A stretch of 64,000 nucleotides of DNA from Candidatus Bodocaedibacter vickermanii (lineage in GTDB: Bacteria; Pseudomonadota; Alphaproteobacteria; UBA6184), in NCBI RefSeq assembly GCF_014896945.1, contig NZ_CP054719.1, forward strand, positions 605,153 through 669,152, in the 5' to 3' direction. Within the stretch, counting starts at the first letter, position 1. Every line of letters begins with the position of its first letter. The position numbers and the translations under genes are program-made. Below are positions 17,277-58,214 of the stretch, one piece after another. The notes beneath the pieces are model-generated. The model worked only from the letters and a program-made list of their open reading frames with translations. It was not told the DNA's origin and made no database searches.

Positions 17277-17738
17277 CTATTTCTTTCTAAACAAGTCAAG
17301 TGATATGACTTTATTTTCGCTCTTGTCGTCTGTATAGTCTTCTATATTTTCTAATTCGGACATTTCAATTGTATCAGGTAGTCCGTCTTCATTCAGCTCG
17401 AACTGCAACACAAAATCCTCGGAAGGATCTGAAAATTCTAAAATTGCATCAAACGGTATCTTAATCGTTTCAATTTTTGAGTTGAAGTTTAAGGATACGC
17501 TAAAACTGGTTTCAAAAACCTTAAGATTCCAAAATTGATTTTCTAATACTATCGTTAATTCATCAGGGTATTCATTCAACAAATACTCTGGGGCTTCCAC
17601 GCCAGGAAACTCTGTTTGAAATGTAATGTAAAAGTGCTGATCACCATACAACCCTTTATCGGCCACGTGCTCTAAAGCATGCCTTACAACATACTTCAAA
17701 CTGTCTTTGATTAGTCGATCATAGTTAATTAACGACAC
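17277..17738 (-). CDS. sspB: ClpXP adaptor SspB, alpha type
   Basis: 153-aa adaptor that binds ssrA-tagged proteins and brings them to ClpXP. The alpha-type fold markers are LKYVVRHALEHVADKGLYGDQHFYITF, EYPDELTIVLENQFW and PFDAILEFSDPSEDFVLQFEL. The acidic linker (ELENIEDYTDD) leads to a basic C-terminal tail ending VISLDLFRKK, which corresponds to the ClpX-binding tail. The start is GTG at 17738 with AGGTGG just upstream; no ATG fits. It lies 22 bases downstream of the tmRNA gene on the same strand, so tag source and tag reader are adjacent. Confidence 0.93.
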   Translation of the reverse strand: MSLINYDRLIKDSLKYVVRHALEHVADKGLYGDQHFYITFQTEFPGVEAPEYLLNEYPDELTIVLENQFWNLKVFETSFSVSLNFNSKIETIKIPFDAILEFSDPSEDFVLQFELNEDGLPDTIEMSELENIEDYTDDKSENKVISLDLFRKK

Positions 17739-17760
17739 TTCCCACCTATTTTTTTGTTAT

Positions 17761-18060
17761 TAGCAGGGGGCTTTCTGTTGCCCGGCGCCCCCCAAACCGC
17801 TTCGCGTTATGCGGCTACTCTTACACCGATAACAGTGTTACGATTAGCTGCAGTTACGCGACGTGCCTTTGTAGTTTTGGCATTTATAAAATTAGCCCGA
17901 TATCGGCGGTTACCATGCCGGATGAAAGATCGTACCTTTATTATGTGCGTCGATCCTATTTCGCCCCCTCAGTTAGAGTGGTGGAGGCGCCGGGTACCGC
18001 CCCCGGGTCCGCTCCACTTATTCCGCACATCGTTTATCATCATAGTTGGCCTAAACCAAC
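17761..18060 (-). ncRNA. ssrA: Two-piece (permuted) tmRNA
   Basis: Transfer-messenger RNA that rescues stalled ribosomes. On the minus strand the acceptor piece comes first and ends CGCCTCCACCA at 17979, with a CCGGG-GGCGGTA-CCCGG T-arm. After a 10-base spacer the coding piece begins GGGGGCGAAATAGGATCGACG-like at 17968. GGGGGCG pairs with CGCCTCC to make the acceptor stem. The tag frame starts at GCA 17851 and reads AANRNTVIGVRVAA, then TAA at 17809-17807. A G-run/C-run pseudoknot around CAACAGAAA closes the piece at 17761. Permuted ssrA is typical of alphaproteobacteria. The exact 5' end of the precursor is inferred from the promoter. Confidence 0.93.
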
Positions 18061-18066
18061 ATATTT

Positions 18067-18095
18067 AATATACATGTATTAAATGCAAAGATCAA
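18067..18095 (-). promoter_or_regulatory. Promoter of ssrA
   Basis: TTGATC (18095-18090) and TATATT (18072-18067) on the minus strand are 17 bases apart. Transcription would start near 18060, just before the acceptor piece. Good fit to a sigma70 promoter. Confidence 0.65.
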
Positions 18096-28705: not shown

Positions 28706-29754
28706 ACTTTAACACTAAATCAATGAACGATATTCTAATTGTAGACGATTCTATTGTTATCAAAAACCATACACACAAATTAGTAAAAGCAATTGCTGGG
28801 GTTGGTAATATTTATTTGGCATCTAATGGTCAAGAAGCTGTTAATGTTCTGAAAGAACACCCAACCATTGATATCATTATTCTTGATATTCAAATGCCAA
28901 TCATGGATGGTATTGCGGCATTACCGCTTTTGCTAAAAATAAATCCAAAAGCAAAAGTTATTATTTCGTCAACTCTCTCCGTTAAGGGTGCTGAAATAAC
29001 GCTACACGCTTTGGCTTTGGGGGCTTGCGACTATATAACAAAACCAAGCCCAACAGTCTTTCAATTTTCTGTTGAAGATTTTGAGAGAGAACTCACAACA
29101 AAAGTTCTGGGTTTATTCACTAAAGAGGCTCTTACAAAGAATACACCTAATCTGCGATCAACACCGATCAGATCTACACTCCCTTTATTTCCACAAGCGC
29201 TTGTAATTGGATCATCTACTGGGGGACCTGCCGCATTGCTTAATATTCTTAGCGGGATGAATCAAACCAGAATACCTATTTTTATCGTTCAACACATGCC
29301 CCCAATATTTACAGCATTGCTTGCAGAAAACATTCAAAAATCAAGCGGGATTAAAACGGTTGAAGTCATTGAATCTCAACCCCTGACAGAAAATTGTATT
29401 TATCTTGCTGCGGGTGGTTTTCACATGGAAGTTATTTCGAAAAATGCGCAGATATTATTAGAGGTAAATACAAATCCTCCACAAAATTTTTGTCGTCCCT
29501 CTGTAACACCTTTGTTTTCTTCTGCGGCTAAGGTTTATAATAATAGGTTGCTTGGTTGTATGCTAACAGGTATTGGCAATGATGGGCTTGATGGGGCAAG
29601 AGATATTATCAACGCAGGAGGGGGCATGATCGCTCAAGATGAAACGTCAAGCACCGTATGGGGCATGCCGCGAGCTGTATATGAAGCAGGGCTTGCAACT
29701 CAAGTTATGTCGCTATCGAATATCAAAGAATTAGTTCACAAGATAACAAAATGA
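28702..29754 (+). CDS. cheB: Chemotaxis methylesterase CheB
   Basis: 350-aa glutamate methylesterase/deamidase that resets receptors. Receiver domain with ILIVDDS (acidic pair 15-16) and phospho-acceptor Asp62 in LDIQMPIMDG. The catalytic domain (~165-345) carries the triad: Ser in VIGSSTGGPAALLN, His in IVQHMPPIFTALLA and Asp in TGIGNDGLDGARD. A start seven codons downstream (MNDILIVDD) is also possible, but the ATGA overlap with cheY supports 28702. Confidence 0.96.
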   Translation: MNFNTKSMNDILIVDDSIVIKNHTHKLVKAIAGVGNIYLASNGQEAVNVLKEHPTIDIIILDIQMPIMDGIAALPLLLKINPKAKVIISSTLSVKGAEITLHALALGACDYITKPSPTVFQFSVEDFERELTTKVLGLFTKEALTKNTPNLRSTPIRSTLPLFPQALVIGSSTGGPAALLNILSGMNQTRIPIFIVQHMPPIFTALLAENIQKSSGIKTVEVIESQPLTENCIYLAAGGFHMEVISKNAQILLEVNTNPPQNFCRPSVTPLFSSAAKVYNNRLLGCMLTGIGNDGLDGARDIINAGGGMIAQDETSSTVWGMPRAVYEAGLATQVMSLSNIKELVHKITK

Positions 29755-30608
29755 CCTCATCTGAAAACACATTAACAGATAGCAACTTTCAGTACTTTGT
29801 TGATTACATTCAACAAACATGTGGGTTAGTCTTGCAAAAAAATCAGCTTTATTTACTGGAAAATAGACTCATTCCCATCATGCGTCAATACAACATCCCA
29901 ACGCTTAATGATGTCGTTGAACGCTTAAAAAAACAGGATCCATCATTTGGTCAAACCCTTGTCGAAGCTTTGGTGACTCACGAATCATCATTTTTTCGCG
30001 ACAAAAAAGTATTTGATTTTTTTGCTCAAGAAATACTTGAAAAACTATACCCTAAAGCTTCTTCATTAGCTCCTCTCAATATTTGGAGTGCAGCGTGTTC
30101 TTCTGGTCAAGAACCCTACTCTATTGCAATGCTAATGAAAGATTTTGCTCAAAAAACTACCCCTCTTATCCCGATCTCTTCGTCTACATGCCATATTCTT
30201 GCAACCGACATCTCAAAAAAAATCTTAGATAAGGCTCAAGCAGGATCGTTTTCGCACTTTGAAGTTCAGCGTGGATTACCAGTAACATTGTTAATCAAAT
30301 ATTTTAAGAAAGACGAAACCAACTGGATGATTAGCAAGGAACTAAAAGATTTAATAAAATTTGAAAATTATAACCTTACTCAACCCAGAAGAATAATCAC
30401 GCAAACGTTTCATGTTATTTTCTGTAGAAATGTATTAATTTACTTTAACGAGTGCGATAAACTAAAAGTTATCCAGCATTTGCACAGCCATCTTAAATCA
30501 GGCGGGCACCTGATATTGGGCAGCTCTGAATTTATTCTTCAAACTCAAACTAACCAACTTGCACTAACACCGGTAAAAGACTATCCCGGTATTTATCAAA
30601 AATCATAA
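29751..30608 (+). CDS. cheR: Chemotaxis methyltransferase CheR
   Basis: 285-aa S-adenosylmethionine-dependent receptor methyltransferase. An N-terminal helical domain is followed by the methyltransferase fold with VTHESSFFRDKKVFDFF, the SAM site NIWSAACSSGQEPYSIAML near residue 115, ILATDISKKIL and FCRNVLIYFNECDK near 225. It ends the che operon and overlaps cheB by ATGA. No terminator is visible; the tRNA-Ser insertion region follows. Confidence 0.97.
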   Translation: MTSSENTLTDSNFQYFVDYIQQTCGLVLQKNQLYLLENRLIPIMRQYNIPTLNDVVERLKKQDPSFGQTLVEALVTHESSFFRDKKVFDFFAQEILEKLYPKASSLAPLNIWSAACSSGQEPYSIAMLMKDFAQKTTPLIPISSSTCHILATDISKKILDKAQAGSFSHFEVQRGLPVTLLIKYFKKDETNWMISKELKDLIKFENYNLTQPRRIITQTFHVIFCRNVLIYFNECDKLKVIQHLHSHLKSGGHLILGSSEFILQTQTNQLALTPVKDYPGIYQKS

Positions 30609-30654: not shown

Positions 30655-30693
30655 TCTGGAGGAGAGAAAGGGATTCGAACCCTTGATACGGTT
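30655..30693 (-). repeat. 39-bp copy of the tRNA-Ser 3' end (attachment-site-like)
   Basis: Identical for 39 bases to 31149-31187, the 3' end of the complete tRNA-Ser gene, in the same orientation and 494 bases away. The two copies bracket a single small gene. This is the pattern left when an element integrates into a tRNA gene and restores its end. Confidence 0.9.
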
Positions 30694-30702
30694 AATATTT
30701 GT

Positions 30703-31128
30703 TTACTTTAACGTAGCCAGAATCTGTAAATCATAATCAAATAATGTACTATCATAAAATAATAATGAATTAAGAGTGCGACTATAGTGTTTAATAAAGT
30801 TTAAGATTTCTCCTTCAGAGTCAAATCCAGGGTCGATACAACAGCCCATAGCCATTCTAACCTGAGACACCCTTGAAAGGCTATATGACAAATCAACTCC
30901 TTCAGCTATACTCCCTGAGACAAAATTACTTAAGCCATTGAGGTGATTTTCTAATTCAGAATTTACCATGAAGTTACAATCAATATTAGCCGCTTTCAAA
31001 CGCAAAGTCATACCAAGGACATGATGATTATCACTTTTAGAATTATACGAGAGTATTTCAGGCATAGTATCAAGAACCTTACTGCCAATAATAGACGGGT
31101 CTGATATATATAAAGTTGCATAATCCAT
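30703..31128 (-). CDS. Hypothetical protein carried between tRNA-Ser att repeats
   Basis: 141 aa from the ATG at 31128 (MDYATLYISDPSIIG). The frame is open further upstream, but that would run into the tRNA gene. It is soluble with no signal peptide. Conserved-looking stretches are VLDTMPEILSYNSKSDNHHVLGMTLRL and a C-terminal FIKHYSRTLNSLLFYDSTLFD. I do not recognise a family. It is the only gene between the 39-bp direct repeats, so it seems to be the cargo of a very small insertion. Confidence 0.6.
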   Translation of the reverse strand: MDYATLYISDPSIIGSKVLDTMPEILSYNSKSDNHHVLGMTLRLKAANIDCNFMVNSELENHLNGLSNFVSGSIAEGVDLSYSLSRVSQVRMAMGCCIDPGFDSEGEILNFIKHYSRTLNSLLFYDSTLFDYDLQILATLK

Positions 31129-31150
31129 AGTTTTTTCCACATACAGTCTC

Positions 31151-31242
31151 TGGAGGAGAGAAAGGGATTCGAACCCTTGATACGGTTTGAGCCGTATACA
31201 CACTTTCCAGGCGTGCGCCTTCAACCACTCGGCCACCTCTCC
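31151..31242 (-). tRNA. tRNA-Ser(GGA)
   Basis: 92-nt class II tRNA. On the minus strand the acceptor stem GGAGAGG pairs with TCTCTCC, the anticodon loop reads CTGGAAA (anticodon GGA), a long variable arm TACGGCTCAAACCGTA follows, then the T-arm AGGGTTCGAATCCCT and an encoded CCA. The discriminator base is T; bacterial tRNA-Ser usually has G there. The 3' 39 bases are duplicated at 30655. Confidence 0.95.
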
Positions 31243-31253
31243 CTGTGTGATAG

Positions 31254-31385
31254 TTGTACTATAACTTAAGGATATAAATCAAGATCGTTTGGTCTATTGT
31301 TTCCATAATAATCGCATTTGATCTGCTATCCAGCTATATGATTGAGCCATTTGAATTAGGAATGTTTCAATCATTTGCATGAATC
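31254..31385 (-). pseudogene. Duplicated 3' fragment of the alpha/beta hydrolase gene
   Basis: 132 bases match 31912-32043 at about 90%. The matching region there holds the last ~92 bases of the hydrolase gene and its downstream flank. Here only that tail is present, without the rest of the gene, next to tRNA-Ser. It marks the other border of the insertion that brought the NTF2-like gene. Confidence 0.8.
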
Positions 31386-31436: not shown

Positions 31437-31826
31437 TTAATGGGTAATATCAGCAAATCGGTTGTAGACTTCTTTTATCTCAAGAATTTTTCCATTCGAG
31501 TCAAACTGCAAAATTGCCGTTGTAATATGTAACCCTACTTTTTCCGAATCCCAAGAAAACCGCAAGGCTGAGCAGTTCTTTTCTTTATCACACAAAACAT
31601 CTAAAACCTTTATAGACCAGGGAAACGCGAAGGCTCTTGCATTACGTAATTGTTCGATTAAGGCAGTTCGTCCTTCTAGGATGCATTTGCCATTTTCAAT
31701 TTTCTTAACATCTTGTGAAAAAATATTAGAACTATAAGATTCATAGTCTTCTAAGTTAGAAAATGCTCCTACATTACCCATAAAATCTATATACCTCATC
31801 GATAGCGATAATAAATCTTTATTCAT
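31437..31826 (-). CDS. SnoaL/NTF2-like protein
   Basis: 129-aa protein of the cone-shaped NTF2-like superfamily. The pattern is a helical start (RYIDFMGNVGAFSNLEDYESYSS), then ILEGRTALIEQLRNARAF and a sheet of ITTAILQFDSNGKILEIKEVYN, as in SnoaL-like polyketide-cyclase or steroid-isomerase-like proteins. The reaction cannot be told. It lies between two copies of the hydrolase 3' end, so it is an insertion into this locus. Confidence 0.7.
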   Translation of the reverse strand: MNKDLLSLSMRYIDFMGNVGAFSNLEDYESYSSNIFSQDVKKIENGKCILEGRTALIEQLRNARAFAFPWSIKVLDVLCDKEKNCSALRFSWDSEKVGLHITTAILQFDSNGKILEIKEVYNRFADITH

Positions 31827-31911
31827 AAAACACCCTGTAATAAATTATTAATTGCGGATAGAACGGGATTCCAACCTGCGATATGATTTAATCAATCATC
31901 TCTTGTGATGC

Positions 31912-32043
31912 TTGTACTATAACTTAAGGATATAAATCAAGATTGTTTGGTCTATTGTTTCCACAATAATCGCATTTGATCGGATATCCAGCTATACGAT
32001 TGAGCCGTTTGGATTGGGAATGTTTCAATCATTTGCATGAATG
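31912..32043. repeat. Intact-locus copy of the 132-bp duplicated segment
   Basis: This is the source or sister copy of 31254-31385: TTGTACTATAACTTAAGGAT through the hydrolase stop region. Just outside it, 31857-31888 (ATAGAACGGGATTCCAACC) resembles a decayed tRNA-Ser 3' end. Confidence 0.8.
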
Positions 32044-32917
32044 CATGAATCACGCCTGGAACATTTTTCTCAGCGACCTGCCCACCTGCATGGATTAATT
32101 TTTCACCATACTTCATTCCGTCATCGCGAATAGGATCACAATCGGCCGTCAATATAACTGCGGGCGGTAACTGATTAAATTTTTTATAAAATAACGGCGA
32201 AATACGCCAATCTTTTAAATTCTGATTCTTAGCATAATTAGCCGCATAATAATCCAATGAATTTTTGGTTAGAAAAAAACCATCTCCGAATAATTTTACA
32301 GATTCATGTTTAAACGTTAAGTCTAAACTTGGATAAATTAACAGTTGAAATTTAGGCACTATGGAATTGGTTTCCACTAACGATGATGTCAATGCTGCAG
32401 AAATGGTACCTCCTGCGCTATCACCCCCTACAGCAATTTGGTCTACCTTAGCACCCAGAGCAGATGCAGTTTGCTGGCACCATGCATACACCACACCAGC
32501 ATCTTCAATCGCAGCGGGATAAGGATGTTCCGGGGCCAATCGATAATCAACCGATACAATGATACAATTAGCTTCTTTTGCAAGGCGTCGACATAACGCA
32601 TCATGGGTATTCAAACTACCCCGACTCCATCCGCCTCCATGAAAATATATTAACAGTGGCAGTTGTTGTAAGGTAGGCCAATATATTCGAACTGGTATAC
32701 CTGTTTTTCGCGTCGATGACATGACGACTCGATCTTCTGTACGCGCCATGGAAATTGGAACGCCACCTTGGTATCTGGATAATTTTTCATAATTATCTCG
32801 AGCAACTTCCGTAGGTAACTGTTCAACAGGCGGCGTATTTAAAAACTCTAATTGCTTTAAAAATGCTGCCGCCTGCGGAACAAGCTTTGAAAAAATGTTA
32901 TCTTTTGACTTAAACAA
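31952..32917 (-). CDS. Alpha/beta hydrolase, hormone-sensitive lipase-like esterase
   Basis: 321-aa carboxylesterase. The oxyanion-hole motif HGGGW is at ~93-97, the nucleophile elbow GDSAGG at ~164, then the Asp in DCDPIRDDG and the His in PGVIHAF complete the triad. This is the family IV (HSL) arrangement with an N-terminal cap (residues 1-60). The start codon is a TTG at 32917, preceded by AGGGTTAGG; no upstream ATG is in frame. It follows mscS by 8 bases and may share its transcript. Its last ~30 codons are duplicated at 31294-31385. Confidence 0.9.
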   Translation of the reverse strand: MFKSKDNIFSKLVPQAAAFLKQLEFLNTPPVEQLPTEVARDNYEKLSRYQGGVPISMARTEDRVVMSSTRKTGIPVRIYWPTLQQLPLLIYFHGGGWSRGSLNTHDALCRRLAKEANCIIVSVDYRLAPEHPYPAAIEDAGVVYAWCQQTASALGAKVDQIAVGGDSAGGTISAALTSSLVETNSIVPKFQLLIYPSLDLTFKHESVKLFGDGFFLTKNSLDYYAANYAKNQNLKDWRISPLFYKKFNQLPPAVILTADCDPIRDDGMKYGEKLIHAGGQVAEKNVPGVIHAFMQMIETFPIQTAQSYSWISDQMRLLWKQ

Positions 32918-52967: not shown

Positions 52968-53007
52968 TTACAGATCGCGATCGAACACCACATATAGCAA
53001 AACACGA

Positions 53008-53658
53008 CTCAACCACTACCAGCTGAAGCTGGTAGGTTGTAATTACAGACTGGAAGTCTCTGACTACTCTAAAGAGATATTAGAAAGGTTATTTGACTGG
53101 AAAGAGTCCGTATGATTGTTGATGTAGGCATTAATGATGTCATCAGTAACATTGCCGCTCGTTGAACTAAAGAACCCTCGCCCCCAGAAGTGTCTTCCCC
53201 AATATTCTTTCTTGATATTAGGAAACTCCTGCTGAATCTTTCTTGACAATCGTCCCTTTGCTATTTTTACAAATTCACTGACCGATACGTGGGGAGATAT
53301 TTCTACAAAAATATGCACATGATCTGCTGACAACACGCCATTGCAAACCTTAACACCCAGTTCATCAGCAACCTGTGCGATCACCTCACGCACTCGTAAT
53401 CTTAATTCACCACTTAGAACTCGTTTACGATACTTGGTGATCCATACTAAGTGATATCTATGGTAAAATACGGTGTGGCTGGTTTTGCTATAATCTGTCA
53501 TATGATACCCGTCGCGTTTCTCAAGCGCTAGCGCTTGAAGACTAAGCTAGGGTATCATATTTACTCCTTTTTTTCAATACCTCGCCTCTTTTCCTTTACC
53601 AAGGACTGAAGTCTTTTTCGCCTGGAAGGCGAAGGTTTTAACCATAAAGGGGACTATA
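53008..53658 (-). mobile_element. IS200/IS605-type element, copy 1
   Basis: 651-bp element that is almost identical to 57370-58020. It starts CTCAACCACTACCAGC with a subterminal hairpin CTACCAGC-TGA-AGCTGGTAG and ends GGGGACTATA. It contains the palindrome TCAAGCGCTAGCGCTTGA and a CGCCT/AGGCG hairpin near the right end. No inverted repeats and no target duplication, as expected for the family. Edges were set using the interrupted gene at copy 2. Confidence 0.93.
53064..53501 (-). CDS. tnpA: IS200-type Y1 transposase TnpA
   Basis: 145-aa HUH single-strand transposase. The metal-binding pair is SADHVHIFVE near residue 60 and the catalytic Tyr lies in DDIINAYINNH near 129. YHLVWITKYRKRVL near the start and YWGRHFWGRGFF are family blocks. 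It moves the element by single-strand excision and insertion guided by the end hairpins. It differs from copy 2 at two residues (ISPHV/IPPHV and RLSRK/RSSRK). No tnpB is present. Confidence 0.96.
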   Translation of the reverse strand: MTDYSKTSHTVFYHRYHLVWITKYRKRVLSGELRLRVREVIAQVADELGVKVCNGVLSADHVHIFVEISPHVSVSEFVKIAKGRLSRKIQQEFPNIKKEYWGRHFWGRGFFSSTSGNVTDDIINAYINNHTDSFQSNNLSNISLE

Positions 53659-53814
53659 AAATGGATATATTTTAGCAAATCGGATCATTAATTAATCCTA
53701 TGATTTCAAGGCTACCTACTTAAGGCACACATAACCACTTTATGTGAATCATGCTATATAGCCAATCACGGATAAAATGAAACTGCGAACGTTGGGATCA
53801 TCCCTGCGATTGCT

Positions 53815-57255: not shown

Positions 57256-57369
57256 GCTGTTATGATACGTTAGAATTATTGTCGCTTAGTTAATAACAAG
57301 ATACTAACTTTTTAAAAATCTCATCTATTGAAAGGAAACACATGTCAGATTATATATTAACCGCCGAAA

Positions 57370-58020
57370 CTCAACCACTACCAGCTGAAGCTGGTAGGTT
57401 GTAATTACAGACTGGAAGTCTCTGACTACTCTAAAGAGATATTAGAAAGGTTATTTGACTGGAAAGAGTCCGTATGATTGTTGATGTAGGCATTAATGAT
57501 GTCATCAGTAACATTGCCGCTCGTTGAACTAAAGAACCCTCGCCCCCAGAAGTGTCTTCCCCAATATTCTTTCTTGATATTAGGAAACTCCTGCTGAATC
57601 TTTCTTGACGATCGTCCCTTTGCTATTTTTACAAATTCACTGACCGATACGTGGGGAGGTATTTCTACAAAAATATGCACATGATCTGCTGACAACACGC
57701 CATTGCAAACCTTAACACCCAGTTCATCAGCAACCTGTGCGATCACCTCACGCACTCGTAATCTTAATTCACCACTTAGAACTCGTTTACGATACTTGGT
57801 GATCCATACTAAGTGATATCTATGGTAAAATACGGTGTGGCTGGTTTTGCTATAATCTGTCATATGATACCCGTCGCGTTTCTCAAGCGCTAGCGCTTGA
57901 AGACTAAGCTAGGGTATCATATTTACTCCTTTTTTTCAATACCTCGCCTCTTTTCCTTTACCAAGGACTGAAGTCTTTTTCGCCTGGAAGGCGAAGGTTT
58001 TAACCATAAAGGGGACTATA
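57370..58020 (-). mobile_element. IS200/IS605-type element, copy 2
   Basis: Same length and ends as copy 1, with a handful of base differences. It is inserted in a small gene. The near identity of the two copies points to recent movement. Confidence 0.95.
57426..57863 (-). CDS. tnpA: IS200-type Y1 transposase TnpA
   Basis: 145-aa intact HUH transposase. HVH metal site and Tyr as in copy 1. Two residue differences from copy 1 (IPPHV, RSSRK); neither touches a catalytic position, so both copies could be active. Confidence 0.96.
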   Translation of the reverse strand: MTDYSKTSHTVFYHRYHLVWITKYRKRVLSGELRLRVREVIAQVADELGVKVCNGVLSADHVHIFVEIPPHVSVSEFVKIAKGRSSRKIQQEFPNIKKEYWGRHFWGRGFFSSTSGNVTDDIINAYINNHTDSFQSNNLSNISLE

Positions 58021-58214
58021 AAGCCCAAGATATCAGATTACTTGTAGAAGATGCAGGACAAGAGTTGGGATACTATTTATATGTGATGCGAATATCCACA
58101 GGAGAAATATATGAAGATCATTTGCAAGATAATTTAGAAATGATATTTCAACAAGCAAAAGAAGATTATGATTTTGAATCCTCTGAATTCAAATCAGTAA
58201 ACGAAGAATAAGGC

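Follow-up and report, generated by a model that had tools for sequence, protein, structure and literature searches.

In the chromosome of Candidatus Bodocaedibacter vickermanii, a 494-bp unit with a single gene stands between an intact tRNA-Ser(GGA) gene and an exact copy of its 3′ end. With a probability of somewhat over one half (about 0.57), this unit is what remains of a mobile element integrated at the 3′ end of tRNA-Ser(GGA). The locus as a whole is a compound array, not one simple insert. Read from right to left, it comprises the esterase gene, spacer B, the decayed tRNA-B, a 129-aa gene, the esterase end with spacer A, the intact tRNA-A, a 141-aa gene, the tRNA fragment F, and the CheR gene. 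The window, which is the whole 64,000-nt stretch of DNA analysed, covers positions 605153–669152 of the host genome (one contig of 1,391,311 bases with 40 tRNA genes). The features of the locus are as follows.

29751–30608, + strand: CheR methyltransferase, conserved flank beyond fragment F (Pfam; DNA 80% identical in UBA6184)
30655–30693, − strand: copy F, displaced tRNA-Ser 3′ fragment, att-like repeat (exact 39-nt match to 31149–31187)
30703–31128, − strand: 141-aa accessory gene (ORF list; homologue only in genome G320)
31149–31187, − strand: 39 nt of the intact tRNA-Ser, in its 3′ part (exact match to copy F)
31151–31242, − strand: intact tRNA-Ser(GGA), "A" (ARAGORN; Rfam RF00005, 55.3 bits)
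31246–31384, no strand assigned: copy A, the esterase 3′ end with the spacer, lying upstream of the intact tRNA-Ser; 91 nt are a pseudo-copy of the esterase end (129/139 positions shared with copy B)
31437–31826, − strand: 129-aa gene, 3′ of tRNA-B, member of an unnamed family (relatives in other genomes; low-confidence model)
31856–31903, − strand: decayed tRNA-Ser "B" with an internal deletion (alignment; 3′ part 30/42 identical to tRNA-A)
31904–32042, no strand assigned: copy B, true esterase 3′ end and spacer (alignment to copy A)
31952–32917, − strand: alpha/beta-hydrolase (esterase), conserved flank (Pfam; protein 89% identical in UBA6184)

The host, which has a small genome, is probably an endosymbiont of a protist. 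It has been described as a Bodo saltans endosymbiont with a complete 1.39-Mb chromosome and 40 tRNAs, having UBA6184 (genome G001) as its closest relative (PMC8163844). No mention of the 494-bp locus was found in the part of that paper available to us.

A displaced 3′ end of tRNA-Ser(GGA)

The first-pass annotation had described the repeat as the last 39 bases of the tRNA recurring exactly 494 bases downstream. The match is indeed exact (39/39 positions, 30655–30693 against 31149–31187) and the spacing is 494 nt, but only 37 nt belong to the end of tRNA-Ser(GGA), and the other two lie past its 3′ end. When tRNA-Ser(GGA) was compared with the window by BLAST, copy F was matched at an E value of 6e-15; a looser mode revealed a second fragment at 31856–31889 (E = 0.012). 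The intact tRNA is located upstream and the 3′ fragment downstream, both in the same orientation, and the ORF list confirmed that the 141-aa gene is the only one between the repeats. The discriminator position is T in tRNA-Ser(GGA), in fragment F and in the UBA6184 copy, as well as in the tRNA-Ser(GGA) of genome G135, and G in the remaining tRNA-Ser genes found in the host (GCT and TGA).

We searched for self-fragments beside the 39 other tRNA genes of the host and found none in stretches covering 2.8 kb or more per side and about 5 kb for most. Together with the exactness of the match, this result ruled out a chance origin of the 39-nt repeat; it also ruled out a genome-wide tRNA-fragment system within the stretches taken. 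Within the rRNA operons, the tRNA-Ile and tRNA-Ala genes matched each other in this survey.

According to the preferred reading, a mobile element would have entered the 3′ end of tRNA-Ser(GGA), presumably through an integrase. The incoming tRNA 3′ end would have restored the gene at 31151–31242, and the old 3′ end would have been displaced to the far side, to 30655–30693. Later loss of the integrase, transfer and other genes, probably by deletion, would have left one cargo gene behind the tRNA. The remnant reading fits best because it accounts at once for the repeat and its orientation, for the accessory gene and for the lack of an integrase.

The 141-aa gene and the recombinases of the host

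The open frame that crosses the tRNA-Ser is a 177-aa ORF, the natural start of which (ATG at 31128) yields the 141-aa protein. The gene lies on the same strand as the tRNA, starts 22 nt past the tRNA 3′ end and stops 9 nt short of copy F. Its expression from the tRNA promoter would be plausible, judging by this position. A gene directly behind a tRNA was rejected as a diagnostic sign: 10 of the 40 host tRNAs have a same-strand ORF within 100 nt, the 141-aa ORF itself being uncounted.

The 141-aa protein matched no family in Pfam, NCBIfam or PADLOC, its best PHROG match was weak (E = 0.086), and no relative was found in 50,697 phage records (tblastn), 72,556 plasmid records or the viral contigs scanned. 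The predicted structure was too poor for use (pLDDT 35). Plasmid and phage DNA matches to the query were discarded, having 12–18% coverage among the matches listed, and those that could be placed fall on tRNA stretches. A viral contig sharing 31 nt of the tRNA (L175) is phage-like, begins at a tRNA-Ser and carries an ORF that resembles a serine recombinase by eye; it showed no tie to the 494-bp unit.

The gene occurs as a single copy in the host genome. It was matched in only one of 59 genomes, its own, and it is absent from both nearest relatives, UBA6184 and G002. The 141-aa gene is thus accessory rather than a core gene conserved at this position, the outcome that the first-pass annotation had set against an insertion. 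A wider sample of the class gave 2 matches in 385 genomes, the host and G320 (35% identity), and 1 in the 17 genomes of the G320 order, namely G320 itself. The G320 homologue is located 1.3 kb from a 989-aa ORF matching the Ti-type TraA (TIGR02768, E = 1e-160, below the cut-off), 0.7 kb from a TraD ORF and about 5 kb from a zeta-toxin ORF. Because a Ti-type relaxase and TraD lie beside this homologue and a zeta toxin lies further off, the family is likely to be cargo of a conjugative or mobilizable element, as judged from one homologue. The earlier claim of an element inserted at the tRNA has good support: the gene is absent from both nearest relatives, and the one homologue found stands among transfer genes.

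The 494-bp unit was correctly judged too small for an integrase: it contains neither an integrase nor a trace of one, the 141-aa gene standing alone between the repeats. The PF00589 recombinases found in the host genome are only XerC/XerD-like and are located away from the unit; the XerC and XerD assignments follow the best-matching models for partial sequences, with scores below the curated cut-offs. These observations bear on the idea of a minimal satellite, still mobile and moved in trans by the integrase of another element. Its perfect 39/39 repeat and compact form are what such a satellite would offer, but the unit has one genomic copy, its protein has no relative in the phage, plasmid and viral-contig scans, and the repeat is absent at the 39 other tRNAs. 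An active satellite is unlikely because the only tyrosine recombinases found are XerC/XerD-like and the other tRNAs have no repeats; as an explanation of the unit, we regard it as very improbable. Of the two origins proposed in the first-pass annotation, movement in trans was therefore not borne out, and the remnant of an island is the best reading, in line with the repeat geometry, the accessory gene and the lack of an integrase inside.

A second duplication and the site in UBA6184

The same tRNA carries another mark, which the first-pass annotation had missed. The 139-bp copies A and B stand on both sides of the 129-aa gene, beside the decayed tRNA-Ser. Compared with UBA6184, copy A is the same at 121/139 positions and copy B at 122/139. 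Since A and B have five and four private changes, respectively, versus 12 in UBA6184, their duplication is younger than the split from that genome. The tRNA end of B is probably no plain copy of tRNA-A, because its 30/42 identity is far below the 93% of the spacer. The 129-aa gene and the decayed tRNA-B are a separate unit at the same hotspot. A single insertion, as first pictured, holds for the insert at tRNA-Ser but is incomplete, as the same tRNA has another duplication and another small gene beside it, which one integrase event does not explain.

The A and B copies also make a tandem duplication or Campbell-type homologous recombination the main, serious rival, because they reveal such an event at the same spot. 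According to this explanation, the spacer, the tRNA-Ser and the downstream gene were duplicated together, and F is the leftover of a further tRNA copy after a deletion, with no integrase involved. The A/B pair records a duplication of the esterase end, the spacer and the tRNA that postdates the split from UBA6184, each tRNA copy is followed by a different gene, and tyrosine recombinases other than the Xer-like ones were not found. A weak spacer copy in another genome, described below, points the same way. However, the explanation needs an extra deletion from 9 nt past the 141-aa stop into the tRNA, the tRNA-B 3′ part has diverged much more than the spacer, which is unlike a simple duplication, and an outside source for the 141-aa gene is still required. 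We consider it a possible but doubtful origin of the 494-bp unit. The remnant and duplication readings may both be true, for different layers of the locus.

In UBA6184, the tRNA-Ser stands between CheR and the esterase, and its 3′ end is the same at 29 of the 30 compared positions, the odd one being an N. The site has neither the 141-aa nor the 129-aa gene. Instead, a broken GNAT gene (Pfam) lies behind the same tRNA, with a 12-nt direct repeat on its two sides; this repeat includes the tRNA 3′ end and was reached in 0 of 2000 shuffles. A gapped search of the left junction against the tRNA showed no likeness past the 12-nt match. An empty site was among the checks suggested earlier. UBA6184 has CheR, tRNA-Ser and the esterase without the 141-aa gene, but the site cannot be called empty, since the scaffold sequence of the tRNA is interrupted by NN and the GNAT pseudogene lies behind it. 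The DNA beyond fragment F showed no significant likeness to the UBA6184 flank (551 of 1000 shuffles were as good). The remnant reading thus has against it a sister site that is not clean-empty, a flank of F unlike that of UBA6184, the neighbouring duplication, no integrase trace, and a link to transfer genes through one homologue.

The 129-aa family and comparison with known systems

Relatives of the 129-aa protein were found in 9 of 385 genomes in the class sample and, by profile search, in 15 of 383 genomes around G153. The two samples overlap and give a set of 22 loci in 17 genomes. At four of these loci, a same-strand tRNA-Ser lies at most 100 nt upstream (the remnant in this window, G001, G135 and G153); with a limit of 1.3 kb, the count rises to seven by adding G361, G402 and G401. 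Two further loci begin less than 300 nt from a contig end, where the upstream side is out of view. By chance, 0.04 of the 22 loci would be expected within 1.3 kb, assuming four tRNA-Ser genes per genome, and counting just four independent lineages gives P ~5e-8 for the link. The upstream genes differ among this window, G001, G135 and G153. In the tree of the family, the tRNA-linked rows do not form one clade, and the starred branches require at least four changes. The tree itself has five changes with G401 scored as unlinked, a value equally low in 40 of 500 shuffles. The tRNA–gene link may be of common vertical origin in part of the lineages.

The gap between tRNA-Ser(GGA) and the 129-aa relative is 17 nt in G153. 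Within the same genus, it is about 0.66 kb in G402, containing a GIY-YIG fragment, and about 1.16 kb in G401, containing a phosphotransferase-family gene. No significant tRNA fragments were found behind the tRNA-Ser in G401 and G402. In G401, the 129-aa relative is preceded by a weak copy of the upstream spacer (score reached in 1 of 300 shuffles), which favors the duplication explanation. Directly behind the tRNA-Ser, a 60-nt stretch of G401 and G402 (L220:9300-9380 and L221:4630-4710) is alike at 49/60 positions, and its 16-nt core occurs once per fetched region.

The 129-aa protein is possibly NTF2/SnoaL-like, according to its model (pLDDT 59). Foldseek gave E values of at least 0.086 and probabilities of at most 0.41 among the best 50 matches, some of which were ketosteroid-isomerase or NTF2-type folds. 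A PDB profile search returned no match below E = 0.36.

The tRNA-Ser site is a hotspot of single-gene inserts, with other single genes in related bacteria, because the UBA6184 GNAT pseudogene occupies the same tRNA and the 129-aa relatives lie near tRNA-Ser at 7/22 loci. For the 129-aa gene, the same counts would also agree with an old, vertically inherited transcription unit of tRNA-Ser and the gene behind it, the repeat being a later local duplication. Extended to the 141-aa gene, we find this improbable: the gene is missing in both nearest relatives, no tRNA was found in the 3-kb stretch scanned at the G320 homologue, and the 39-bp repeat is left unexplained. A bolder and rather unlikely proposal is that tRNA-Ser genes in small-genome alphaproteobacteria would form a platform for single promoterless genes expressed behind the tRNA, gained and exchanged through homologous recombination, with no integrase, in units of spacer, tRNA and gene. 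The window would then hold three stacked units (B with the 129-aa gene, A with the 141-aa gene, and fragment F). At the level of titles and abstract openings, the literature gave no match for such a tRNA–gene cassette system, which is not proof of absence.

Like an Islander-type tRNA island, the 494-bp unit has an intact tRNA and a displaced 3′ fragment downstream in the same orientation; unlike it, the unit has no integrase and measures 494 bp versus the 2 to 200 kb required, so it would go unlisted. Islander rejects candidates that lack an integrase or are shorter than 2 kb, according to the available text (PMC4383910). According to the available parts of two papers, the RAGE elements found in Rickettsia "typically insert in tRNA genes" (PMC9111745), and Orientia has isolated cargo genes as a recognised class (PMC10732058); both degraded elements targeted to tRNAs and cargo genes standing alone are known from Rickettsiales (PMC9111745, PMC10732058). 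As far as these texts go, RAGE, the integrative conjugative element of Rickettsiales, resembles the present locus in tRNA-gene insertion, degraded elements and lone cargo genes. The Ti-type TraA and TraD beside the G320 homologue are a further likeness, whereas the 494-bp locus consists of one gene, without an integrase, tra genes or further RAGE cargo. In Haloquadratum, a 6.7-kb region with a partial tRNA-Thr and no nearby integrase was read by its authors as an element remnant, in the part of the paper available (PMC3119063). It shares the partial tRNA copy without a nearby integrase, but differs as an archaeal, larger case with an imperfect repeat. Phage satellites differ in that the 141-aa gene showed no homology to the phage records and viral contigs scanned, the weak PHROG match apart.

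In integrons, a gene cassette consists of one gene that follows a fixed gene and lies between repeats resembling recombination sites. The 141-aa gene has this arrangement, but the repeat is tRNA sequence, not attC, and no IntI-type integrase was found among the PF00589 matches of the host, for which XerC and XerD were best.

The unusual part of the locus is its size, below the 2-kb limit of the standard island finder; the kind itself is already known. Single-gene inserts go uncounted, as the standard tRNA-island catalogue drops candidates that are below 2 kb or lack an integrase. If tRNA-Ser sites in these endosymbionts repeatedly take single genes, a systematic search below 2 kb would reveal the ways of gene gain in integrase-poor genomes, and the 129-aa family with its tRNA-Ser link is a concrete handle for it.

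Other elements were observed in the window and the host. ARAGORN found a permuted tmRNA of the two-piece type at 17716–18071, the usual form in alphaproteobacteria. An interspersed repeat of about 250 bp (L094:2398-2724, and G000 sites such as G000:C1:788468-788731), 75–89% alike, has several host copies, and one copy adjoins a comEC-like gene in UBA6184. Exact direct repeats of 241, 48 and 363 bp link 53007–53660 with 57369–58022 at one offset of 4362, the trace of a recent duplication. Five sites (906, 19428, 50717, 54059 and 58961) have exact stretches of 37–84 bp in common and form a repeat family.
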